44,896 nucleotides of DNA from a virus. The notes beneath the pieces were generated by a model. It was not told where the DNA came from. It saw only the letters and a list, made by a program, of their open reading frames with translations, and ran no database searches. Below are positions 2,844 to 42,581 of the stretch, one piece after another. A program made the translations under genes and the position numbers. The stretch lies in IMG/VR virus record IMGVR_UViG_3300021478_000052, positions 1 to 44,896 of that record. One strand, 5' to 3'. Every line of letters starts with the position of its first letter. Within the stretch, counting starts at the first letter, position 1.

Positions 2844-5491
2844 CCTTGGAAACCTCCGAATTCCATTCCGAAACACATCCCGAAGCCGCTCATCCAAAAC
2901 GACAGCGTTCGGGTTCTACCAACGAGCGCCCCATTAACGGGCTTGATTGTGAACACGACCGGACCCGTCTGGGTCGCCGCGAGCCTGGCCGCGAGCGTGA
3001 ACGCGTATGCGTTGCCCACTTGCGCGGCGAGGTTCACGATGAGAACGCCGCCGATTGTGACCGTAAGCGTGTAGTTGCCCTCGATGCCGCCGGGGAAACT
3101 GGGGTCGTCCTGGCGGATGATGCTTTGCCCCTGGTTCACGCGATGACGGTCGAGCCAAGAAAAATCAGCGTCGCCGAGAATCGAAACCGGATACCAAACC
3201 CCATTAACGAGCACGTCGCCCGGCGGGTAAGGCAATTGCGCCCGGCTTACAGTCGTCAGACTCACGCTCGCGACTTGCGACGGATCGGTCGTTCCGTACG
3301 AATTCGAGGGGAGCGCCTTCGCCGTGACGGTCACGTCCGCCGGGTACGTCGCGGGTTGGACGTACGCCGCGCCGTCGCCGAAGAACCAAACCAACGCGCC
3401 AGGCGCATGGTCGCCGGGAAGCGTGTCGAACAATCCGCGAGCGATGCCCACGACCGAATACGAGCCGTCGAGGTTCTCCGTCATCGCCGTAAAACGCATA
3501 ACCTCGTCGTCAATGAGGAAAAGATTCGAAGCGATGGCGTCGAGGTCCACGCCGGACGCCAGGACGAACCCGGTCGAATCTTCCGGCCCGGCCTTCGCGT
3601 GATAGGCGTCGCGGAGGTAACCGAGCGGGACGAACGCCTCGTCCTCATTCGTGAGCGCGAGGGGGCCGCCTGTCGAGGAATCGATGTCGCAATCGAGCGA
3701 GAGGCCGTCGCCTCGGGCCGCGAGCATGGCGACAAAACGCTGCGGCGAGCCGAGCAGCGCATAAGGCACTTCCATTAACGCCTCGGCCAGGGGCGCGGGC
3801 GGCGGGCCCGTCGGAGTCGGGTTGCTCCATCCCCCGCCGGAGAATGGCGGCGTGTACGCCGGGGACGCCATTCCGAACGCGTCCTCGATGGCGGTAATTT
3901 CGATTTCGCCTTTGGTCAGTTCGCCGTAGTTGATGCCAGCAATCCGGTAGGGAACGAGAGAGAACCCGAGCGCCGCATTCGAAAACCCGAACACGCCGCC
4001 GGTTCGGAAGTTCCAAGCCTTGCGCGTGGTTTTCAGACGGACCCGCCCGAACGGGTACGAGTGCGCCTTGAGTTCCCGCGCCGCGATGATTTGCGCGATG
4101 TTCTGATTCGACAACCCGAGAAAATCTTGCGTGTCGCTCGCGAGTTGCCCGCGAACCGCATAGTTTGCCGTTTCCTGCGCTTGAGCTGACCGGGGCGTGA
4201 AATTGAGAGAGCGGTCGCAAAATTTAACTTTGATTTCGTTCAGAGTCTCGTCCCATGTGATGCGCGAGAACTCCGGCGGTTCGAGACAATCGTCGTCGCC
4301 GATTTCGACGAGCGTCGTCGGGTCGTAATCGTCGCGGATAAGTTTCAGCGTCCAAAGGCCCGTCGCGGGGTCGGTATAGAGAACACCCGAGATGTGCCGG
4401 AGCACGTCCGAAAGAAACGAATCCGCGCTCCCTATCGTGTCGATTTGCAACGACATTCCCAAGCCTTCGAGCGCCAGAGTTGCCGCCGCCGCGATGAATG
4501 CGGCGGAATCGAAGCGAGCCGAGGGGATGCCGAGGCCATAGCGAACGCTAGTCATCATGTCGTAAATGATCCAGGCCGGGTTCGCATCGCCGCCGATGTC
4601 GCCGTTCCCTTGCGCGAGCGGGTCCGGGCAACGCTTGACGACGAACGCGAGCGGCGGGACTTGGTTCGACGTGCCGATATAGATTTGCGTGCAAACCGCG
4701 TGACAGTATCCGGCATAGGACGGGACGACGGACGCGCCCGGCAACTTCCCCAAGAGGTACGGGCAAGCGGGTTGCGTCTCGGTTCCGAGGTAAACCATCA
4801 CCAGGCCCGCCATCCCGCCGCCGCCTTTGTCGCCGCCGAACAGGTTCAACGCGTCCAAATAGACTTCCCAAATATCGTCTCCCACTGACGTCGGATGGTC
4901 GTAGTTGACCGCCTTGTCCTGCGCAAAAATCGCGGAGGGCGTCGAGACTGTAAACGAGAACTGATCGCCCGGAGCAAAGGGCGTCGTCGGTCCCGCGACG
5001 ATGAGCAGCGTCGTTACATACGCGGACGAGTAAGGCGTGCCGACGACGGCGACCCCGCCAGAAACGGGGAGCGCATCGGCGGGACGCTGCGTTGTTACGT
5101 TGAAGTGCGTCGCGTCAGTCGCGATGAGGACGACCGTAAAAGGGTCGGGGCCTGGCGTCGCCGTGCATTCGGAGATGTATCCGTCCCCTGCGCACTTCCC
5201 GACCATTCCGGAAATCGACCCGAGTTCGGCGAGCGAATCGACCGGGCCATGGCAAAGCATTAAATCCATGCCGATGTAATACCTGTACCCGACGGTCGTC
5301 TTAAACCCGACCGTCAACCAACCGCCATGCTTGAGCGGGGTCACGCGGAGGTCGCCGTACCAAACGACGTTCGGGGCCGCAAGTTTTACCGTCCCAAAAA
5401 CAACGGGAATGATCCTTCCTTCCTCTGCAGTGGGGAGCGTGAAATCGCCGAGTCCCGACGCGAGACTCTTCGCCTTTGAGGCGAGGTACAT
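2840..5491 (-). CDS. Tail tip / central fibre protein (lambda gpJ-like baseplate hub)
   Basis: A protein of at least 883 residues with the features of tail-tip proteins that close the distal end of siphophage tails. The motif IPVVFGTVKLAAPNVVWYGDL near the N-terminus is typical of this class (IPVVFGT followed by a W-x-DL). It is followed by beta-rich domains with GLGIPSARFD and an MRFTAMTENLDGSYSVVGIARG segment. It lies just before the fibre gene and just after a BR0599-type gene, the usual order. Start: ATG at 5491 has no ribosome site. The frame is open further upstream to a TGA at 5549-5551 and encodes a hydrophobic helix (FLWILVQLAAYIASTVLTM) like that seen at the start of many relatives, but without ATG, GTG or TTG. 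The true start may be CTG at 5533. Confidence 0.85.
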   Translation of the reverse strand: MYLASKAKSLASGLGDFTLPTAEEGRIIPVVFGTVKLAAPNVVWYGDLRVTPLKHGGWLTVGFKTTVGYRYYIGMDLMLCHGPVDSLAELGSISGMVGKCAGDGYISECTATPGPDPFTVVLIATDATHFNVTTQRPADALPVSGGVAVVGTPYSSAYVTTLLIVAGPTTPFAPGDQFSFTVSTPSAIFAQDKAVNYDHPTSVGDDIWEVYLDALNLFGGDKGGGGMAGLVMVYLGTETQPACPYLLGKLPGASVVPSYAGYCHAVCTQIYIGTSNQVPPLAFVVKRCPDPLAQGNGDIGGDANPAWIIYDMMTSVRYGLGIPSARFDSAAFIAAAATLALEGLGMSLQIDTIGSADSFLSDVLRHISGVLYTDPATGLWTLKLIRDDYDPTTLVEIGDDDCLEPPEFSRITWDETLNEIKVKFCDRSLNFTPRSAQAQETANYAVRGQLASDTQDFLGLSNQNIAQIIAARELKAHSYPFGRVRLKTTRKAWNFRTGGVFGFSNAALGFSLVPYRIAGINYGELTKGEIEITAIEDAFGMASPAYTPPFSGGGWSNPTPTGPPPAPLAEALMEVPYALLGSPQRFVAMLAARGDGLSLDCDIDSSTGGPLALTNEDEAFVPLGYLRDAYHAKAGPEDSTGFVLASGVDLDAIASNLFLIDDEVMRFTAMTENLDGSYSVVGIARGLFDTLPGDHAPGALVWFFGDGAAYVQPATYPADVTVTAKALPSNSYGTTDPSQVASVSLTTVSRAQLPYPPGDVLVNGVWYPVSILGDADFSWLDRHRVNQGQSIIRQDDPSFPGGIEGNYTLTVTIGGVLIVNLAAQVGNAYAFTLAARLAATQTGPVVFTIKPVNGALVGRTRTLSFWMSGFGMCFGMEFGGFQG

Positions 5492-24620: not shown

Positions 24621-24863
24621 CTAAGCTACGCCTTCTGCTTTTTTCGGCCCTCGGAGGCGCACGTTCCCGACCGCGTCGAGTTCCCAAATTTCCTCGACGC
24701 GACAACCGAGGGCCGCCGCAATTTTTAAGGCGCTCGCCAACCGCAAGTTGTTACAGCGTTCGGTCTGAGCACGCCATAAAATATTGTGGGCGACGCCGAC
24801 GCGGGCGGACAATTCGCGCAACGACTCGACTCGCCGCGCTTGCGATAAGGGGTTCTCGCTCAT
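24621..24863 (-). CDS. XRE-family helix-turn-helix protein
   Basis: An 80-residue DNA-binding protein. The helix-turn-helix covers about residues 15-60: SLRELSARVGVAHNILWRAQTER..LRLASALKIAAALGC. It ends in a short basic tail. It precedes DUF3846 and terminase genes and may control late gene expression, though nothing in the sequence shows its target. Confidence 0.75.
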   Translation of the reverse strand: MSENPLSQARRVESLRELSARVGVAHNILWRAQTERCNNLRLASALKIAAALGCRVEEIWELDAVGNVRLRGPKKAEGVA

Positions 24864-26055: not shown

Positions 26056-26187
26056 TCACTTGTTGACCGTGACGATTGTCGAGAGCCAGCGACCATCGAC
26101 GCACAGCCGCTCCCAGAACTTCGGCTGAATCGTCTCTTCCCCTCGAGCGCAAGGAGCTTGGTGAGCAACCGCGCATCGGCTGTTCAT
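26056..26187 (-). CDS. Upstream part (43 residues) of the TGA-split gene
   Basis: Starts at ATG 26187, which overlaps the methyltransferase stop (ATGA), and stops at TGA 26058-26056. It contains PKFWERLCVDGRWLSTIVTV. The stop is in frame with the larger downstream segment, so the natural product was probably about 144 residues. The TGA could be a true nonsense mutation, a sequencing error (for example TGG or CGA read as TGA), or, less likely, a readthrough site. Confidence 0.5.
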   Translation of the reverse strand: MNSRCAVAHQAPCARGEETIQPKFWERLCVDGRWLSTIVTVNK

Positions 26188-27512
26188 TTGCGTTTTGCCT
26201 TTCTGCCGGTGGAAATTTCCCAACGACGAACGATGACGTCGCAGAACTTCTCCTCGATCTCGATCAGCCGACTCTGCCGGCCTGATTTCTCGGCCGCCAT
26301 TAGCGTCGAGCCGGACCCGCCGAAGGGATCAAGCACCAGCTGGCCAGGCACACTGCTGTTATTCAGGAACCTGGTGATCAGGGAAACCGGCTTCATGGTG
26401 GGGTGTTCCGAGTTCGCGGAGGGCTTGGGGCAGTAGAGGACGCTGGTGGGAAGCTCCGCCACCTGCAGCTCGGCCCCGGAGAAGATGAACAGCCGGTCGC
26501 CGATCAGGATCTTCCACGCGCCCTCGGCGGTGCGCTCGACTGTGGCGTCGGGACCCAGGTCCTGCACCGTGGTCTGCTTGCGCCCGCCGTAGAATTTGTG
26601 CGTGCCGGTGGGTTTCCAGCCGTACAGCACCGGCTCGTGCTGCCACTGGTAGTCGGAACGTCCCATCACCAGGGAGTTCTTGCGCCAGATAAGACAACCC
26701 GAGAGCTTGAATCCAGCCTCCCGGAAGGTTCTCCGGAAATTCAAGCCCTCGGTGTCCGCGTGCGCGACGTAAATCGACGCGCCCCCTCTCGCACAGCGGA
26801 ACATTTGCTCAAAGGCACGGAGCAGGAACCCGCGGAACGCCTGGTCCTTCTGGTCGTCGCCCTTGATGGTGCCAGCGCCACCCTCGTACGCCACGTTGTA
26901 CGGAGGATCGGTGAAAATCAGGTCCGCGCGCGCATCGCCCATGAGCCGGTCGAGGTCCTGGGCCTTGGTTGCGTCCCCGCAGAGCAGTTTATGGTCGCCC
27001 AGGGTGATCAGGTCACCTTTTTTTGTTTCCGGAACAGCGGGAGCCGGGGGAACTACGTCCTCGTCGGCCTCCGGTACCAGGGAATCGGCGCTGAGGATCG
27101 CCAGGACCTCGTCCGTTTCAAATCCGGTGGGGATCAGATCGAAGTTCGCGGCCCGGAGGAGCTTCAATTCGGATGCGAGGAGCGGTTTTACCCATGTCGC
27201 CTCTTCGCCCGTGCGATTGTCGGCGAGCCGGTAGGCCCGCTCCTCGTCCGGCGTGAGGTTGTCGGCCACTCGCACCGGAGCTTCATGCATGCCCAGGCGG
27301 AGCGCAGCGCCGCGGCGCGTGTGTCCGGCCAGGATAACCCCCTTTTTGTTCACCACGATGGGCTGCTGCCAGCCGAACTTCGTGAGCGACGCCATGACCT
27401 TGTCGATAGCGGCCTCGTTGTCACGCGGATTGTTCGGGTAGGGGATGATCTTCTCGAGGGGCCAGACTTCAACCTTCCAGGTCTCGGCCTTCTTCGCGGC
27501 TGCTGTTACCAT
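26184..27512 (-). CDS. DNA methyltransferase fused to a ParB-like domain
   Basis: A 442-residue protein with two domains. Residues about 10-110 match the ParB/sulfiredoxin-like fold found in phage methyltransferases (KIIPYPNNPRDNEAAIDKVMASLTKFGWQQPIVV, GHTRRGAALRLGM). Residues about 180-440 form an N6-adenine or N4-cytosine methyltransferase of the beta order: TDPPYN (motif IV) comes first, then DPFGGSGSTL (motif I, SAM binding) near the end. It would methylate phage and perhaps host DNA. Start at 27512 follows AAGGAG. Overlaps the upstream gene by 44 bases. Confidence 0.9.
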   Translation of the reverse strand: MVTAAAKKAETWKVEVWPLEKIIPYPNNPRDNEAAIDKVMASLTKFGWQQPIVVNKKGVILAGHTRRGAALRLGMHEAPVRVADNLTPDEERAYRLADNRTGEEATWVKPLLASELKLLRAANFDLIPTGFETDEVLAILSADSLVPEADEDVVPPAPAVPETKKGDLITLGDHKLLCGDATKAQDLDRLMGDARADLIFTDPPYNVAYEGGAGTIKGDDQKDQAFRGFLLRAFEQMFRCARGGASIYVAHADTEGLNFRRTFREAGFKLSGCLIWRKNSLVMGRSDYQWQHEPVLYGWKPTGTHKFYGGRKQTTVQDLGPDATVERTAEGAWKILIGDRLFIFSGAELQVAELPTSVLYCPKPSANSEHPTMKPVSLITRFLNNSSVPGQLVLDPFGGSGSTLMAAEKSGRQSRLIEIEEKFCDVIVRRWEISTGRKAKRK

Positions 27513-27987
27513 TTTCAGAACACTCCTTATTATTAGGTCCTCGCCCGCTTTTGGATTTGGTGATCGGACCGGGCAGACAAACGTCCGACGTCGGGGCCGC
27601 AACTGGAACATGCCCGAACAGGGCGCGCTCCATCCACATCCCGGCACCAGGAATAGTCAGACCGAAGGGCCGGGAGCGCCGGTAGGCCCGGAAATCCTTG
27701 GCCTTTCCAAGCTCGACCAGTTCGCGCTGGATGAGCAGGGTCGCACCGATGCACTCAAGGAGCTTCGTTCCAGGCATTACCAGCTTCTCGCTGCCGTAGA
27801 ACTGGCTCTCCGGATCGGTCGCGTGACAGACCATGCCGGGAGCCTTGCCGGAGCGCAGACCGTTCCAGAGTCGCCGGAGATTCCGCAGCGTGTACCAGCC
27901 GGAGGCGTGGCGTTTCCGAAAGTTTGACCGGAGCCACGGGCAGGTGGAGCACGGGTTGATGCGTGGTGCCTGGCCGCGCTGGGTCAT
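27469..27987 (-). CDS. Hypothetical protein with CxxCPW motif
   Basis: A 172-residue protein whose start (27987) follows AAAGGTGA and overlaps the previous gene by ATGA. The first residues hold NPCSTCPWLRSNFRKRHASGWYTLRNLRRLW and later GMVCHATDP, a cysteine and histidine pattern seen in small phage and soil-bacterial proteins of the DUF6283 kind. These may bind zinc or an iron-sulfur cluster. The C-terminal 40 residues are Gly/Ser/Asn-rich and overlap the methyltransferase start. Confidence 0.65.
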   Translation of the reverse strand: MTQRGQAPRINPCSTCPWLRSNFRKRHASGWYTLRNLRRLWNGLRSGKAPGMVCHATDPESQFYGSEKLVMPGTKLLECIGATLLIQRELVELGKAKDFRAYRRSRPFGLTIPGAGMWMERALFGHVPVAAPTSDVCLPGPITKSKSGRGPNNKECSENGNSSREEGRDLEG

Positions 27988-28815: not shown

Positions 28816-29043
28816 TTAAACCCAGCTTTCTAGAATTGCAGGATCATCATTTTCAGAACGGCCCAGGCAGAACAGCCCACGCAAGATGGCGCGTGCATCG
28901 TCCACAGAGTCCAGCACTAGCTCGACCGGGCTGGGAACGTTGCCATACCACGCACGCACCACGATACGGTTGGGGAAGTCGCGCGGGTTTCGATAGATCG
29001 CGAAGATCGGAGGAAACGCCGCTTTTGCTTCTTCCAGGTTCAT
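28816..29043 (-). CDS. Hypothetical protein
   Basis: A 75-residue protein starting MNLEEAKAAFPPIFAIYRNPRDFP. Its ATG overlaps the stop of an XRE-type gene (ATGA). Sequence VRAWYGNVPSPVELVLDSVDDARAILRG suggests a small alpha-beta fold. Small proteins of this size and composition are common in phage accessory blocks. No family recognised. Confidence 0.6.
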   Translation of the reverse strand: MNLEEAKAAFPPIFAIYRNPRDFPNRIVVRAWYGNVPSPVELVLDSVDDARAILRGLFCLGRSENDDPAILESWV

Positions 29044-29315
29044 GCAGTTGCGACCGCACGCTTTCTCGGCTTTGCTTTCGCGCCAGCATGGTGATTTTCG
29101 TATTGAGTCAGCATCTCGCCTCCGGATTTGAACCCGAACGCATCTGCGAGCGACGCCAACTGTGGAAGGTTCAATCTCGCTTCGCCGTGCTCGATTGCGA
29201 CACAGCGCGCGAGAGTCAACCCAGCTTTTTTTGCGAGTTGCCGGAACGAGAGGCCGCGAGCCTCTCTGGTCTTCCGAACGAAATCGGCGAACTTCATCTT
29301 GGAGAATCTGCGCAT
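29040..29315 (-). CDS. XRE-family helix-turn-helix protein
   Basis: A 91-residue protein with a helix-turn-helix at about residues 10-60 (FVRKTREARGLSFRQLAKKAGLTLARCVAIEHGEARLNLPQLASLADAF), clear XRE/Cro type. The basic C-terminus (GAKAKPRKRAVATA) may add DNA contact. Start could be either 29315 or the ATG at 29297; neither has a strong ribosome site. It may regulate the accessory operon or act as an antitoxin-like protein, but no toxin partner is visible. Confidence 0.78.
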   Translation of the reverse strand: MRRFSKMKFADFVRKTREARGLSFRQLAKKAGLTLARCVAIEHGEARLNLPQLASLADAFGFKSGGEMLTQYENHHAGAKAKPRKRAVATA

Positions 29316-30646: not shown

Positions 30647-31306
30647 CTATTTGTAGGCCCGGTCGAACTGCTTCTCGAACTCCTGGTCGTAGACGCGCTC
30701 GGCGATGCCCAGAAAGTCGTAACGCCGATTGAGAGCAGGATGCTGAACGAACAGGTACATCGCGCGAATCACATCGCCGGTTTTCTGGAACAGGCCGCGC
30801 GGCGTCGTTCCGTGCGGGACGTTGGGCAGGGAGAAGATTCCTCCGTCCTGCTCGGACACCAGCTGAGTGGTGCCGTCCTTCAGAACGCGCGGGCGCATGT
30901 GGATCTTCGACAGCTGCAGCGCAGCGACCACGGGATCTGAGAACGAGGGGCGCGCGGCGGAGCCGGTGACCGGCACGCCCACGCTCTGGCCCTTCACCGG
31001 CTCTTTGAATCCGCCCTCAACAAACTGATCGAGCAGAGTGCGGTCCTTGTGATCGATGCCGATCTCGCCGTACACCTGCTGCGGCCCGATGCCCTTAAAC
31101 ACCTTCGCGAACGTGTAGATCTTGATCAGCCGATACATGAAGTCGTTTTTCCGGATGGTGAAGCGCCGGTCCAGTTCCGCACGCTCCTCGCGCTGGATCT
31201 CCAGCATGGTGCGGTTGATGGCTGTCGCGGTTGAATATGCCAGGCGTTTCGATTCTCGTAACGTCTTGGCCTCGAGGCCACGGATGTCGATATCGAACTT
31301 GATCAT
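30647..31306 (-). CDS. Virion-like protein, possible minor tail protein Z type
   Basis: A 219-residue protein starting MIKFDIDIRGLEAKTLRESKRLAYSTATAINRTMLEIQREERAEL. The N-terminal helix-rich segment (KRLAYSTATAINRTMLEIQ) and later FTIRKNDFMYRLIKIYTF are typical of the prophage minor tail protein Z family, which are virion proteins. Its place in the early block, away from the other structural genes, is odd. It overlaps its upstream neighbour by ATGA. It may have been acquired separately or have a different job. Confidence 0.55.
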   Translation of the reverse strand: MIKFDIDIRGLEAKTLRESKRLAYSTATAINRTMLEIQREERAELDRRFTIRKNDFMYRLIKIYTFAKVFKGIGPQQVYGEIGIDHKDRTLLDQFVEGGFKEPVKGQSVGVPVTGSAARPSFSDPVVAALQLSKIHMRPRVLKDGTTQLVSEQDGGIFSLPNVPHGTTPRGLFQKTGDVIRAMYLFVQHPALNRRYDFLGIAERVYDQEFEKQFDRAYK

Positions 31307-31503
31307 GGTTTCCCCTTCTTCAACGCCGCCGACTGCTCCATCGGTCGGTCGTACTTTATGTCGGCCAGGTACTGATAGAGCCCCGACCTGGAAATGCCCA
31401 GCAACTTCGCAGCCTCAGCGACGTTGCCGTTGCAACGCTCCAAGGCGTCGACGATGGCGCGCCGCTTGAGTTCCTCGAGCGTGAGTATCGGTTCCGGCAT
31501 CAT
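31303..31503 (-). CDS. Fis-type helix-turn-helix protein
   Basis: A 66-residue DNA-binding protein. The sequence LKRRAIVDALERCNGNVAEAAKLLGISRSGLYQYLADI matches the C-terminal helix-turn-helix of Fis and NtrC-type regulators. It is the only domain. The start at 31503 overlaps the TGA of the previous gene. It could bend DNA or regulate transcription. Confidence 0.72.
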   Translation of the reverse strand: MMPEPILTLEELKRRAIVDALERCNGNVAEAAKLLGISRSGLYQYLADIKYDRPMEQSAALKKGKP

Positions 31504-31718
31504 CGCGCCTTTCTGAAATCCTTGGCGTCTGGGCAGCTGGCCCAGTGCGCCTCGAGCAAGGTGGTGCTGCCTGGAGCCAGGGAGAACGGCATTCGCTTGC
31601 CGTTGGGCGTTTGGTACCAGCGGAGCATCGCGGAGCACGTGTGCCCAGTGCAGCGCGTGGCAAAACGGAACACATAGCCGCCGCTCACCAGTTCCGCCTC
31701 TGTGGCTGGAAACTTCAT
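31500..31718 (-). CDS. Hypothetical protein with paired cysteines
   Basis: A 72-residue protein starting MKFPATEAELVSGGYVFRFATRCTGHTCSAMLRWYQTPNGKRMPF. The CTGHTC motif and a later HWASCPD suggest a small metal-binding protein. The ATG at 31718 overlaps the TGA of the gene before it. Similar small proteins occur in phages next to DNA-modification genes. No named family recognised. Confidence 0.6.
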   Translation of the reverse strand: MKFPATEAELVSGGYVFRFATRCTGHTCSAMLRWYQTPNGKRMPFSLAPGSTTLLEAHWASCPDAKDFRKAR

Positions 31719-32113
31719 GGCTTCGCTTTCCGCAGTGCATTCCTGCTGGTGACCGCCTGGAACCCGTCCTCGAATTCCACAGCGCAGCTGTTCATCTTGC
31801 CGCGCACCAGGACCGCACAGCGCTGGCCTTTGCGACCCATCCGGCTCCATGCGTATCGATACGGGAACTCTGCAGCAGCGCGGCATCCAGGCACTTGATG
31901 CGACGCATCACCGCTCGCCTGCGATTGATCAGGTACCGCCTCTTGAGTCGCCGCTTCAGGACGTTCATGCTCTGCCTCCGAGTCTGCTATCAACTTCTCC
32001 GCGCGGTCGAGATCACCGCAGAACACTGCCCAGAACACGTAGTCGGCCAGAGTGAGCGAGCCGGGCGGATCGCCGGGACGTGTGAGGCCAGGACCGAACA
32101 TGCCGTAGCGCAT
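31715..32113 (-). CDS. Hypothetical protein with C-terminal basic domain
   Basis: A 132-residue protein starting MRYGMFGPGLTRPGDPPGSLTLADYVFWAVFCGDLDRAEKLIADSEAEHE. The C-terminal 40 residues (MGRKGQRCAVLVRGKMNS..EFEDG..AVTSRNALRK) form a compact basic unit like that seen at the end of many short phage proteins and may bind RNA or DNA. ATG overlaps the TGA of the upstream gene (TGATG). Confidence 0.6.
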   Translation of the reverse strand: MRYGMFGPGLTRPGDPPGSLTLADYVFWAVFCGDLDRAEKLIADSEAEHERPEAATQEAVPDQSQASGDASHQVPGCRAAAEFPYRYAWSRMGRKGQRCAVLVRGKMNSCAVEFEDGFQAVTSRNALRKAKP

Positions 32114-38236: not shown

Positions 38237-38407
38237 GATCGTTCCGGTTATGCTGAACGTCACGCTGCCCGTGGGCCTACCTTCGGCGAACTCGTTGGTG
38301 ATTTCAAAACTGTCGACCGAGGAGTACTCAACCGTCATCTCTTCCCCGTTAAACAATTCCAGAACGAGCTTTGCGTGTTTCGCTTTTATGATCCCGCCGT
38401 CTGCCAT
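38177..38407 (-). CDS. Hypothetical protein after the integrase
   Basis: A 76-residue protein starting MADGGIIKAKHAKLVLELFNGEEMTVEYSSVDSFEITNEF. Beta-rich. The start at 38407 follows GGAGGGACGC and overlaps the end of the integrase gene. Small proteins at this site sometimes help excision, but this one has no helix-turn-helix. Function unknown. Confidence 0.62.
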   Translation of the reverse strand: MADGGIIKAKHAKLVLELFNGEEMTVEYSSVDSFEITNEFAEGRPTGSVTFSITGTIKRPELRPDVSGSFASCSIA

Positions 38408-39666
38408 TTGCGTCCCTCCAACTCGGACTGTACTGGCTTGCGGGAATCACCCGCAAAATCGAACGCCAGCTGCCCGTCCTCCGGCTTGCGGGGCGAACCG
38501 CAGACCGCAGTACCGAGCTTGTCCATCGCGTTCACTTCATCGGTTCCCAGAACATGAGTGTAAACCTTCATGGCCAGAGCACCACCGTCCTGATGACGGA
38601 GAGCGCTGCCCACTACACTCGGGGAAGCTCCAATCCCACCGGATGCTACATCTTGCCCGAGCACACTTGCTGCCGTGTGTCGGAACGCATGCAGGCTGCG
38701 CCCATTCCGCGGGATCTTCAGCCGTTCCAGAATCGGGTACAGAACATTCTGCCTTAGAGAAACCAAGGCAATGATCTTCCCGAGGCGCTCGCCGGGAAAC
38801 AGCAGCCCTAGTTTGTTGGGCCTCCACGTCGACCGCAGATACTCCTGGAGTATGGCTGCAACGTCGGGGGCTACCCGTTTCAATGACGGGTTGTTCCCCT
38901 TCGTGGTGGTGAGCGTTTCCGAGCCGTAGGCCGCACCGGAGTTGCTCTCCACAAGCACCGTTCCGTTTCTGAAATCGAAGTCACTCACCCTCAGAGCCAG
39001 GACCTCACCGGGGCGCAGAGCGAGAGCGCACTGCGTACGAAAGATCAGTCCGTAGAACGGCCCCGCCGCGTCGATGATGCGCAGGGTTTCCTCCAGAGTG
39101 AACAGCTTCAACTTCGTGGATTTGATCAGCTTCGGCACGACGATCCCGGCCCGATTGAATGCGACCGGATAATCCCAGCGCATCGCGCACGCCATCACGC
39201 CAGACAGCGTGCCGACGATGCCGCGAATTGCTGAGACTCCAAGCCCGCGTTCGATCAGTGAATGAACCATCCGCTGCACCGTCTCCGACTTGATCGCCGC
39301 GAGGGGCAGTTCCCCAAACCACGGCACCAGGTAAAGTCTCAGAATTGAGTTCGCCGTCACCAGGCCGCCCGCCTTCCGTGTTGCGTAGGCCGCGGGCAAC
39401 TTGTTGGTGATGAATTCTGAGAACGTGATTGTCGTGGACGGCTTGAACGTCGGGTTGTTTGCACCCGTGCTGAGTAATTCATCCGCCGCCCTTTGTGCCA
39501 TCGCCCTGGTCATGTCGGAGCACTTGCCAACCTGCTGCTTCCGACAAACCCTGACGCGTCGCCCGGTTCCGTTGACCACATCCTCGCGGAACCTGATCAC
39601 CCATCTTGCTCCCGGTCCAGTTCCCATCTGCTTCACGCTGGGCCGTTGATACCTTCTTCGAGCCAT
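38386..39666 (-). CDS. int: Tyrosine integrase
   Basis: A 426-residue tyrosine recombinase that inserts and removes the prophage. Catalytic residues seen: Arg218 (LALRPGEVLAL), Lys256 (LTTTKG), His326 and Arg329 (SLHAFRHTAAS), His358 (ALRHQD) and Tyr369 (KVYTHV). Residues about 75-165 form the SAM-like core-binding domain, and the first 50 are basic and would bind arm-type sites. The start at 39666 (MARRRYQRPSVKQMG) is chosen over a longer frame to 39804 because relatives start this way and the upstream part lies in the putative attP region. Repeated CGCTGGTT sites lie just upstream. Confidence 0.9.
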   Translation of the reverse strand: MARRRYQRPSVKQMGTGPGARWVIRFREDVVNGTGRRVRVCRKQQVGKCSDMTRAMAQRAADELLSTGANNPTFKPSTTITFSEFITNKLPAAYATRKAGGLVTANSILRLYLVPWFGELPLAAIKSETVQRMVHSLIERGLGVSAIRGIVGTLSGVMACAMRWDYPVAFNRAGIVVPKLIKSTKLKLFTLEETLRIIDAAGPFYGLIFRTQCALALRPGEVLALRVSDFDFRNGTVLVESNSGAAYGSETLTTTKGNNPSLKRVAPDVAAILQEYLRSTWRPNKLGLLFPGERLGKIIALVSLRQNVLYPILERLKIPRNGRSLHAFRHTAASVLGQDVASGGIGASPSVVGSALRHQDGGALAMKVYTHVLGTDEVNAMDKLGTAVCGSPRKPEDGQLAFDFAGDSRKPVQSELEGRKWQTAGS

Positions 39667-39784
39667 CGCAACCAGTTCTTTCTGGGAGCGTGACCCCGCT
39701 GGTTTGTCGTCACCAGCGTAACTCTTTTCAGAACACTTAGCGAGCACAGACATCGCGCAAAAGAAGCACCCGGTCGGTGCCAGA

Positions 39785-39983
39785 TTCGCTGGTTGGACAT
39801 GCACCGGGTGCCGTTCGCTGGTTTTTGCGCTGGTCTAACTTCGGGCCGTGGGCCGGGGACCTTGGAGTCGGGTCGGGGCCATCCGCTGGTTGTTTGTTCG
39901 AACGGGAGAACCTGTGCGCCCCAAATCTTAAAAGCGAAACGCGCGTTTCGTCCCGGTATCAGGTCAGCGCGATTAAACCAGCG
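39785..39983. promoter_or_regulatory. Candidate attP / integrase arm-site array
   Basis: CGCTGGTT occurs at 39787-39794, 39816-39823 and 39884-39891, and inverted at 39976-39983. The first two lie in a longer shared TTCGCTGGTT. A perfect 16-bp palindrome, CGAAACGCGCGTTTCG, is at 39935-39950. The 462-base gap between integrase (39666) and the MarR gene (40129) holds no supported gene. The repeated 8-mer next to an integrase start fits arm-type binding sites of an attP region, but the core cannot be located without the host junction. Confidence 0.5.
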
Positions 39984-40082
39984 TGGAAAATCGCGAGGGC
40001 GGGTACCAGAGTTTTGTTCGGACTTTGTACGCCCCCGAACGGAGCGGTGTCAATCCGCATCCTGTGGAAAGCGTGTGGAAAT

Positions 40083-40128
40083 TCGGAACACATCGTACGC
40101 AAAACACACGATACGCGCGGTGTTCCGA
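40083..40128 (-). repeat. Nested inverted repeat at the end of the MarR gene
   Basis: TCGGAACAC (40083-40091) and GTGTTCCGA (40120-40128) form a 9-bp outer stem, and ATCGT / ACGAT a 5-bp inner one. The structure starts directly after the MarR-type stop codon. On the minus strand ATTTCC follows. It may be a terminator, an operator or part of the attachment region. Confidence 0.45.
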
Positions 40129-40626
40129 TTATCGTGCTTTTTTCTTGCGGTCAGGTTTTGAGGACGGGGGAGGGCCCGCCGTTTCGATAACGGCCCTGGC
40201 CCAGGCCAGCAGATCGGAAATCTGTTTCGAGGTGGAGGGACGGAGGATATCGTGCCACACCTGCGCGCGCAGCTTGTTGATCGCGGCCAGGGTGCGCCTA
40301 CCTTTGGGAGTGAGCACGATGGTCGCCTCGCGGCGGCTCTCAGGACGGCGCTCGCGCTTCAGGTGCCCCGACCCTTGCTGGTCGTCCAGGCGGTCGATCT
40401 CCAGGACCATGACGTTCCGGTTGATGCCCAGGAGGTCGGCCATGTATCCCTGGCTCAGGGGCGGCTCAGAACTCGCGGCCTGAATGATCAGGGCCTCGCG
40501 CAGAGAAAGCCCAAGCCCCTCCATCACCAGGCGGTCGGCGCGTCGGTTGTTGATGCGCAGCACGGAGTCCAGGTGGAACTGCACCGAGTCCTTAAGGCCG
40601 GACGGGATGACTTTCTTTCCATTCAT
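40129..40626 (-). CDS. MarR-family transcription regulator
   Basis: A 165-residue protein with the MarR fold: dimer helices at both ends and a winged helix with LSLREALIIQAASSEPPLSQGYMADLLGINRNVMVLEIDRLDDQ and the wing HLKRERRPESRREATIVLTPKGRRTL. It is rare for phages to carry MarR proteins; here it may be the lysogeny regulator or sense a small molecule. The start at 40626 lies 26 bases from a 19-bp operator-like sequence that also precedes the gene at 42241, so it may regulate both. No ribosome site is seen, and a leaderless message is possible. Confidence 0.82.
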   Translation of the reverse strand: MNGKKVIPSGLKDSVQFHLDSVLRINNRRADRLVMEGLGLSLREALIIQAASSEPPLSQGYMADLLGINRNVMVLEIDRLDDQQGSGHLKRERRPESRREATIVLTPKGRRTLAAINKLRAQVWHDILRPSTSKQISDLLAWARAVIETAGPPPSSKPDRKKKAR

Positions 40627-40651
40627 ATGTCGGACGTAGGATACACCGGGA

Positions 40652-40670
40652 ACAGGCGGGCCTGCACCTA
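40652..40670 (-). promoter_or_regulatory. Operator-like site upstream of the MarR gene (copy 1)
   Basis: The sequence ACAGGCGGGCCTGCACCTA contains the palindrome CAGGC-GG-GCCTG. It is identical over 19 bases to 42253-42271. On the minus strand it follows TATAGG, a possible -10 element, so a bound protein would block the start of transcription. Confidence 0.6.
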
Positions 40671-40740
40671 TAAGACCACAAAAAAACAATTAGAAACAGA
40701 ACACTGAGGGTGTACGACTTTCGGAACAGGGCAGTAGCGC

Positions 40741-40917
40741 CTATTTAGAGTGCACCCTGGGGCGTACCACGATCTCGACGCGCAGCGGCGGTTCGGGCGC
40801 ACACACGTGCCGGGAGCGCAGGTACTCGGCCTCCTGCCAGGTGGCAGGGGCGTACTGCCGCGCGCAGTCGGGGCAGTACACAATCCAGAACGTGCCGAAC
40901 TTGGAAACGGTGACCAT
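40741..40917 (-). CDS. Small zinc-binding protein
   Basis: A 58-residue protein starting MVTVSKFGTFWIVYCPDCARQY, with CPDC and a later HVC that could hold a zinc ion. Only nine bases separate it from the gene upstream. Two longer frames overlap the same bases but read as shadow sequences. The Cys pattern and close spacing support this frame. No family recognised. Confidence 0.55.
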   Translation of the reverse strand: MVTVSKFGTFWIVYCPDCARQYAPATWQEAEYLRSRHVCAPEPPLRVEIVVRPRVHSK

Positions 40918-40926
40918 GCGCCACGC

Positions 40927-41247
40927 TCAAAATTGCTCCTTCAAAATCTGGACCAGGACCAGTACCACAGCACTCAGAACAGTACCGCGTTTTTCGTAGC
41001 TGGGCAACAGCCGCTCGATGAGTTCCAGGGTGCGCGGCGTAATGGCGTAGGTTTGAGACGCCACCGGCGAGCCGTTCTCCTCCACCTTCGGCTTGCGCCG
41101 CATGCGGACCAGAAGCTCGGTCCCGACTTGGATCGCGCGACCGTTCGAACCGAACTCCGGAGCAAGCTCCTCCAGCTTTCGGATGATGTCCACGGGAACC
41201 TTGAAGGTCTTATCGATCAGCGCCGGTTTCTTTTTCGCTTTCGGCAT
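40927..41247 (-). CDS. Ribbon-helix-helix-like DNA-binding protein
   Basis: A 106-residue protein starting MPKAKKKPALIDKTFKVPVDIIRKLEELAPEFGSNGRAIQVGTELLVRMRRKP. The pattern FKVP.DI..KLEELA....S.G.AI..G.ELLVRM fits a ribbon-helix-helix DNA-binding domain, which dimerises and binds operators. A second helical segment follows. The start at 41247 is set by GAGGAG upstream. It may control the regulatory block. Confidence 0.68.
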   Translation of the reverse strand: MPKAKKKPALIDKTFKVPVDIIRKLEELAPEFGSNGRAIQVGTELLVRMRRKPKVEENGSPVASQTYAITPRTLELIERLLPSYEKRGTVLSAVVLVLVQILKEQF

Positions 41248-41334
41248 TCGATATAATCTCCTCTTCCGAAGTGTGAGCCATCGCACGAGGAACCGAACCG
41301 GGGGCGTTCACCTCATCCGCGGGCGTCCTCGTTC

Positions 41335-41769
41335 TTACCAAGTCTTAACCCTAGTGACGTCGACGGTAAAGGTACTGACACCGCGCGCGCTCGTGAGCTG
41401 CCACTCAAATGGGAATACCGAGTGCGCCGGGATGTTGCTGATACTCGCAGGCCAAATGTCGTCGACAGAGAGAATGTTCCCAGCCTTGTCGTAGGTCGTG
41501 ACTTTGAGCTGGGCACCCACTGCCAGCGCGCAGTTGTTGAGCAGGCGGCCCGTGACGTGGATGCCCTGATCGCGGAGCTTGTCGACGGCGATATCCGCCA
41601 CGCCGCATGCCTGGGACCGAACCACCTGCGTGCCCGGCTCCGCCGCGGCGGTTCCGGTAACCGACTGAGCAGCTCTATACAGGACGAACGAAATGATCGC
41701 GATGGTCAGAAGCATCAAGACGATGGAACCGCCCCGACTTTGTTTTTTCTTGCCTGTAGCGATATTCAT
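41335..41769 (-). CDS. Membrane-anchored FxLYD-like protein
   Basis: A 144-residue protein with a short cytoplasmic start (MNIATGKKKQSRGG), one transmembrane segment (SIVLMLLTIAIISFVLYRAA, about residues 15-34) and an outer domain with a beta pattern (VTGRLLNNCALAVGAQLKVTTYDKAGNILSVDDIWPASISNIPAHSVFPFEWQL). This resembles the FxLYD domain of bacterial envelope proteins. In a prophage, such a protein would be placed in the host envelope, so lysogenic conversion or exclusion of other phages is possible. It overlaps the next gene by ATGA. Confidence 0.75.
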   Translation of the reverse strand: MNIATGKKKQSRGGSIVLMLLTIAIISFVLYRAAQSVTGTAAAEPGTQVVRSQACGVADIAVDKLRDQGIHVTGRLLNNCALAVGAQLKVTTYDKAGNILSVDDIWPASISNIPAHSVFPFEWQLTSARGVSTFTVDVTRVKTW

Positions 41770-41963
41770 AACAGCCTCCAGTTGGATGGTCCCACCACGG
41801 AACCCAGGGAGGTAGTTACCGATGTGCGCTGTTCGCGCTTCAGCTTTTCAGCGGCCAGGATGATCCGGCTCTGGGTGGTGGGCGGGAGCGACTCCCAGGA
41901 CCGGAGGTCGCCCGTCTGCGCCCGGTAGTTCGCGAGAGCCTGGTCGACGAAGTGAGTGTCCAT
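41766..41963 (-). CDS. Small hypothetical protein
   Basis: A 65-residue protein starting MDTHFVDQALANYRAQTGDLRSWESLPPTTQSRIILAAEKL. It is helical. It overlaps genes on both sides (TAATG and ATGA), so it belongs to the same transcript as the zinc-binding and FxLYD-like genes. No family recognised. Confidence 0.65.
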   Translation of the reverse strand: MDTHFVDQALANYRAQTGDLRSWESLPPTTQSRIILAAEKLKREQRTSVTTSLGSVVGPSNWRLL

Positions 41964-42241
41964 TACCGCACCCCCTGCGCGAGGATCGCCGCGTGCTGTT
42001 CCGGCGTTGGGTCGTAGAAGATCTGGAAGTCACAGTGCGGACCCACCAGCTTCTGGAACCCGACCGCTCCAACGTGCCCGCATTGCCACCAGCCGGAGAG
42101 GGCCAGATTGAGGAACAGCCTGGTGCCGCACGTGGGGCAGACACCAGTCGCGACCACCGCGTGCGCCTCGGCGAGACGCGCCATACGCTGCGCTTTCTCG
42201 CTTGCCCTCACTGCCGCCCGTTGTCCGTTGGTATTCTTCAT
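41963..42241 (-). CDS. Zinc-finger-like protein, first gene of the regulatory operon
   Basis: A 92-residue protein starting MKNTNGQRAAVRASEKAQRMARL. It has CPTCGTRLFLNLALSGWWQCGH, a zinc-binding pattern (two Cys, then Cys-Gly-His). An operator-like 19-bp sequence at 42253-42271, identical to that before the MarR gene, lies just 12 bases upstream of its start. It probably heads the transcript that runs to the MarR gene. Confidence 0.62.
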   Translation of the reverse strand: MKNTNGQRAAVRASEKAQRMARLAEAHAVVATGVCPTCGTRLFLNLALSGWWQCGHVGAVGFQKLVGPHCDFQIFYDPTPEQHAAILAQGVR

Positions 42242-42252
42242 GTCCCAAGGGT

Positions 42253-42271
42253 ACAGGCGGGCCTGCACCTA
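42253..42271 (-). promoter_or_regulatory. Operator-like site upstream of the regulatory operon (copy 2)
   Basis: The same 19 bases as 40652-40670, ACAGGCGGGCCTGCACCTA. It lies 12 bases before the start of the zinc-finger-like gene. On the minus strand the shared core TAGGTGCAGGCCCGCCTGT is followed by a base that differs and then CCC in both copies. Confidence 0.6.
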
Positions 42272-42305: not shown

Positions 42306-42444
42306 CAGAACACATGATCACACAAACATACGGTGTGTTGGTTACTCCAGAACACGCCAGAGGAGCAGGGGCCTGCTGCCAACGTTACAAATTCAGAACA
42401 GATTACGCCGAAATAGGAGAGATTTCACGGTAGAAAACAGAACA
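42306..42444. repeat. Four CAGAACA heptamers spaced 42-46 bp
   Basis: CAGAACA occurs at 42306-42312, 42348-42354, 42394-42400 and 42438-42444, with steps of 42, 46 and 44 bases (about four helical turns). The gap from 42272 to 42581 has no supported gene. It holds these repeats, a 20-bp tandem repeat and a terminator. Regular spacing fits multiple binding of one protein (iterons, operators). Confidence 0.5.
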
Positions 42445-42469
42445 GCCAAGCAGAAGGACAGAAAGGACT

Positions 42470-42509
42470 TCCGGATTTCGTAACAAGTTTTCGGATTTCG
42501 TAACAGGAC
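42470..42509. repeat. Tandem repeat of a 20-bp unit
   Basis: Two adjacent units share the core CGGATTTCGTAACA (42472-42485 and 42492-42505), spaced exactly 20 bases. They are next to the terminator at 42519-42540 and follow the CAGAACA repeats. Possible protein binding or replication origin element. Confidence 0.5.
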
Positions 42510-42511
42510 GC

Positions 42512-42540
42512 AAAAACAGCCCTGGGAGATTCTCCAGGGC
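42512..42540 (-). terminator. Rho-independent terminator of the lysis operon
   Basis: On the minus strand: GCCCTGG stem (42540-42534), 8-base loop, CCAGGGC (42525-42519), then TG and TTTTT (42516-42512). It lies 42 bases after the stop of the last lysis gene, so transcription of the late operon ends here, before the regulatory block. Confidence 0.85.
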
Positions 42541-42581
42541 CGTGTGCCTTGAAAGAGCAGAGGGTACTGCCTGCACAGCTG

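Follow-up and report, generated by a model that had tools for sequence, protein, structure and literature searches.

Temperate T7-like phages are among the closest parallels to the locus described here. In LUZ100 and Pasto a MarR-like gene lies directly upstream of the tyrosine integrase gene and on the same strand, and its product has been proposed to act via specific promoter sites (PMC10134795). MarR regulators of phages are described as uncommon (PMC10434257), and so far proposals, not proof, link them to lysogeny (PMC10134795). For the operator itself a comparison is offered by a MarR protein of Mycobacterium smegmatis with a proven operator, a 21-bp palindrome, with protection over positions -35 to -7 relative to the start codon of the regulator (PMC4143341), while the operators and stoperators of mycobacteriophage L5 offer a third comparison system (PMC6550527).

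The window (i.e., the whole 44,896-nt stretch analysed here) resembles LUZ100 and Pasto in that a MarR-like gene is found directly upstream of an integrase gene, on the same strand. Unlike the T7-like phages, it encodes a portal of the lambda type together with the gene set of a long tail, and the part of the window's genes that was scanned revealed no T7-like RNA polymerase. In Pasto the MarR and integrase genes overlap, whereas here a 462-bp, attP-like gap lies between them, and the MarR protein shows no detectable similarity to that of Pasto; because this similarity is absent, the likeness is one of arrangement and not of membership. As in the autoregulating MarR of M. smegmatis, a palindrome of about 20 bp stands right before the regulator start codon, a close positional match, but the sequence differs, a second near-identical copy precedes another gene, and binding here is predicted. 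The likeness to L5 concerns only the motif TGTTCYG, which is short, asymmetric, present in several copies and mostly oriented with transcription; stoperators are numerous oriented intergenic copies spread across the genome and bound by one repressor, the motif here is seen clustered near the regulator, and the palindromic repeat has just two copies. Here a MarR protein of a phage is accompanied by a candidate operator that is specific, conserved and present in two copies, which makes the idea of MarR-controlled lysogeny reducible to a simple binding and reporter test, and the genes behind one of the copies form a short list of those that may act with MarR. The features concerned are as follows.

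42516-42543, minus strand: intrinsic terminator that follows the lysis genes and is kept in the diverged relative
42306-42444, minus strand: four TGTTCTG motifs (42306, 42348, 42394, 42438) that lie upstream of site 1 and represent another candidate family of operators
42250-42269, minus strand: site 1, GGTGCAGGCCCGCCTGTACC, a 20-bp imperfect palindrome holding most of the repeated 19-mer
41963-42241, minus strand: zinc-ribbon-like protein of 92 aa with cysteine pairs, whose gene opens the block behind site 1
40741-41963, minus strand: rest of that block, small genes at 41766-41963, 41335-41769, 40927-41286 and 40741-40917
40697-40728, minus strand: TGTTCTG (40697-40703) and TGTTCCG (40722-40728), upstream of site 2
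40649-40668, minus strand: site 2, GGTGCAGGCCCGCCTGTTCC, a 20-bp imperfect palindrome before the MarR gene
40129-40626, minus strand: MarR-family regulator of 165 aa, encoded immediately upstream of the integrase and candidate binder of both sites
39667-40128, no strand assigned: MarR-integrase gap with TGTTCYG motifs, ACCAGCG repeats (probable attP arm sites) and a promoter-like pair
38386-39666, minus strand: tyrosine integrase (Pfam 3e-6; phrog_1 4.7e-43)

A conserved pair of palindromes

The palindrome pair is real, conserved and operator-like, and as a switch it would be of a normal, known sort; what the original prediction made of it is supported in part. The 19-mer ACAGGCGGGCCTGCACCTA occurs exactly at 40652-40670 and 42253-42271, with no third copy in the window when up to three mismatches are allowed, and the number of such repeats expected by chance is zero (100 dinucleotide-preserving shuffles). 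With one mismatch the repeat extends to 23 nt (40648-40670 and 42249-42271). All the relevant genes are on the minus strand, and so the useful reading is TAGGTGCAGGCCCGCCTGT. The 19-mer forms the core of an imperfect palindrome of 20 bp with the minus-strand consensus GGTGCAGGC-CC-GCCTGTWCC, the full element on the coding strand being GGTgCAGGC-CC-GCCTGtACC. The original prediction had placed two exact 19-mers, with a palindromic CAGGC-GG-GCCTG core, just upstream of gene starts at 40626 and 42241; both copies and both minus-strand ATGs are indeed there, and the core is a true inverted repeat, within a palindrome longer than the one first described. Its arms pair at eight of nine positions at 42250-42269 and seven of nine at 40649-40668. 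The core is intact nowhere else in the window, but with up to one mismatch it is found at three places in total against 2.6 expected, so that the core alone is unremarkable and it is the long exact repeat that is remarkable. Site 1 occupies -28 to -9 before the 42241 start codon, with 8 nt between its end and the ATG, and site 2, which ends 22 nt before its ATG, occupies -42 to -23 relative to the start codon of the MarR gene (40626). A weak candidate for a third site, within the MarR gene at 40566-40585, was rejected, its score falling within the range of shuffled sequences.

Two further contigs emerged when IMG/VR was scanned with the 19-mer and the sequences of four proteins, the same two with each protein (MarR, zinc-ribbon protein, 40927-41286 protein, integrase). 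One of these, the twin contig 3300050821_006770 (L005), is identical over 6762 bp, belongs to the same phage and was left out as an independent comparison. The other, IMGVR 3300021478_000138 (L006), is a diverged relative, in which the MarR protein is 65%, the zinc-ribbon protein 85% and the integrase 79% identical, and which keeps both copies of the site ahead of the same two genes. Site 1 of the relative (2495-2514) matches at 20 of 20 positions, against 46% identity in its upstream DNA; site 2 (4966-4985) reads GGTGCAGTCCCGGCTGTTCC and is 85% identical, against 44% upstream as aligned, with positions 8/13 changed from G/C to T/G. Conservation extends to the DNA from each site to its ATG (about 91%). 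Since both copies have been kept although identity in the upstream non-coding DNA is as low as about 45%, the site is under constraint; the two sites are a clear footprint of it, as read from one independent comparison. In all four sites, those of the window and those of the relative, the dyad is broken by a G/T pair at positions 4/17.

The IMG/VR scans yielded only two independent phages with the site, and two distant zinc-ribbon relatives (L131 and L132) are without it. Bacterial genome contigs searched with a variant-tolerant 20-mer gave 44 matches from unrelated phyla, one per stretch; each fell inside a long open frame and away from any homologues of the block, and a host regulon was rejected as unlikely on these grounds. 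A scan of bacterial genome contigs with a MarR alignment found no relative. The bacterial genomes yielded no site of this kind beside homologous genes.

The MarR-family gene and the DNA around the integrase

The AlphaFold model of the 40129-40626 protein has a mean pLDDT of 67 (70-87 in the core), and its top Foldseek matches all belong to the MarR family, the best being 2a61 (E 2.6e-6, TMq 0.57); the modelled protein has the winged-helix fold of the MarR type. NCBIfam gave four weak MarR-type matches (1.2e-5 to 1e-3), all below the curated cut-offs, the Pfam family MarR_2 matched at 0.043, also below its cut-off, and a comparison with 50,697 phage records produced only two matches, weak and unannotated. 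Assignment to the MarR type, already made in the original prediction, is therefore supported by the modelled fold, with weak agreement from sequence.

Between this gene and the integrase, the 39667-40128 gap is well conserved in the diverged relative and contains ACCAGCG repeats in both orientations; it looks like an attP with arm sites. A promoter-like TTGACA-18-TACAAA can be read on its minus strand, from 40053 down to 40024, and further TGTTCYG stretches are found at 40084-40127 and 39729-39735. The gap also holds the palindrome CGAAACGCGCGTTTCG, and a 20-nt inverted repeat, 90% complementary, brackets the integrase gene (38373-38392 and 39925-39944).

Transcription units and probable promoters

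The genes downstream of the two sites had been described as two regulatory genes, which is half right: the MarR gene fits, but the 42241 gene encodes a zinc-ribbon-like protein for which family-model searches, including NCBIfam, found no family above cut-off. The conserved terminator at 42516-42543 sets the block starting at 42241 apart from the genes upstream and makes it a transcription unit of its own. In the diverged relative a second terminator-like hairpin (4910-4935) is found about 30 bp before site 2. Because terminators precede the site 1 region and the relative's site 2, both sites stand where new transcripts would start, and a promoter is probably to be found in the gap holding each site, most tightly delimited for site 2 of the relative. 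A strict sigma-70 scan found no promoter at either site. By eye, site 1 is located between TTGGCA and TACCTT (spacer 17) in the relative and between TTGCTA and TACCCT (spacer 16) in the window, and TACCTT or TACCCT is followed by the ATG after 6 nt; site 2 has no recognisable -35. In both phages there is no Shine-Dalgarno sequence before the 42241 gene or the MarR gene, while many neighbours have one, and this fits transcripts whose start is downstream of the site, at the ATG or close to it; the conserved flank between site and ATG is likewise as expected of a core promoter. Taken together, this suggests that the sites are inside core promoters from which transcription begins at the start codon or close by. 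A 17-nt direct repeat, TTYCGGATTTCGTAACA, in two copies 20 nt apart (42469-42505), also stands between the terminator and the TGTTCTG cluster; it is not kept as a pair in the relative.

A proposed mechanism and its alternatives

The sites themselves, their conservation and placement, the MarR fold and the upstream terminator are direct observations, and from these we infer the promoter positions, the binder, its repressing action and the link to lysogeny. In the model that we favour, and to which we give about an even chance, the 20-bp imperfect palindrome would be the operator of a dimeric regulator and would overlap the core promoters of two transcription units running in the same direction, the MarR gene and the 42.24-40.74 kb block; the regulator is most likely the MarR-family protein of the phage itself. 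The bound repressor would block RNA polymerase at both promoters, and the MarR gene and the block would be repressed in step. MarR is the most likely binder, but its binding and the co-regulation of the two promoters are put forward as a candidate arrangement. Against the operator model we count the asymmetric conservation of the element (positions 4/17 in all sites and 8/13 in site 2 of the relative), the negative outcome of the strict sigma-70 scan, the lack of a -35 at site 2 and the small number of independent phages with the site (two), and against MarR as the binder the presence of other HTH proteins in the phage.

The module probably serves the lysogenic programme, being next to the integrase and attP-like DNA. 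The suggestion that this is the phage's lysogeny switch is plausible by analogy, given that an integrase and attP-like repeats are adjacent and that T7-like phages provide a MarR-integrase precedent; we hold back from it since other HTH genes are present and since TGTTCYG is more numerous than the palindrome at the same promoters, and conserved. A more elaborate scheme, which we consider rather unlikely, would have lysogeny controlled in two layers, on the basis of a MarR-type repressor, in a phage with all its genes in one direction; the shared palindrome would tie the repressor gene to the neighbouring small-gene block, and many oriented, stoperator-like TGTTCYG motifs at the block, repressor and integrase promoters would form the second layer.

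If the palindrome is a DNA operator, its binder need not be MarR. Cro/C1-type HTH proteins are encoded at 29040-29315 (2.5e-9) and 24621-24863 (1.4e-5) and a Fis-type HTH protein at 31303-31740 (1.1e-12), and the 40927-41286 protein has a possible ribbon-helix-helix pattern, recognised by eye and seen as strand-helix twice in a low-confidence model too poor to use. None of the Cro/C1- or Fis-type genes adjoins a copy of the site, however, while the MarR gene does, and a host protein is disfavoured by the scatter of the bacterial matches, so that we regard another regulator as unlikely, if worth keeping in mind. It is also conceivable, though improbable in our view, that the element acts in RNA, as a hairpin (8-bp stem, CCCG loop) in both 5' leaders that would control translation or mRNA stability and may involve binding of a phage protein. 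The pairs that break the dyad, G-T at 4/17 and T-G at 8/13 in the relative, would be G-U wobbles in RNA, and the hairpin is predicted to form at both site 1 copies and imperfectly at site 2 of the window; yet its folding is little better than that of shuffled sequences (z -1.65, -1.70 and -0.48), site 2 of the relative folds otherwise (z 0.03), Rfam has no match, and neither gene has a Shine-Dalgarno sequence for a hairpin to mask.

The TGTTCYG motifs raise the question of whether they are the real lysogeny operators, TGTTCYG serving as main operator of immunity, and the palindrome an accessory (e.g., for an activator, or for autoregulation only). Although chosen after inspection of the sequence and with enrichment computed in the regulator region only, the motif is found nine times in 916 bp of non-coding DNA (three gaps) against 0.43 expected, and seven times in the relative against 0.33, mostly in one orientation, on the gene strand. 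It precedes the block, the MarR gene and the integrase, and includes strongly conserved stretches; the TGTTCTG nearest site 1 is conserved in the relative. But there are many other genomic copies in coding sequence, which codon use may explain (CAGAACA occurs 26 times on the plus strand of the window and seven times on the minus); we find it doubtful that the palindrome is secondary to these motifs. Least probable is a coding origin, in which a GTG start would give an MQARLY/F N-terminus or a leader peptide. In both phages the site 1 sequence GTG-CAG-GCC-CGC-CTG-TAC shares the frame of the 42241 gene, and among the similar stretches from bacterial genomes several read, by eye, as VQARLF inside proteins. 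In site 2 of the relative, however, a 1-nt deletion just behind the element shifts the frame, so that no peptide is shared and the coding reading fails there, and the 20-mer of site 1 is unchanged although the 42241 gene is 81% nucleotide-identical between the two phages.

Two further observations concern the genome as a whole. The twin contig spans both ends of the window (positions 1 and 44,896), with about 105 nt between them; the genome is therefore probably circular or circularly permuted, of about 45.0 kb, and the window nearly complete. In the protein encoded at 26184-27647, a DNA methyltransferase part comes after a ParB-like one (phrog_498, phrog_620).
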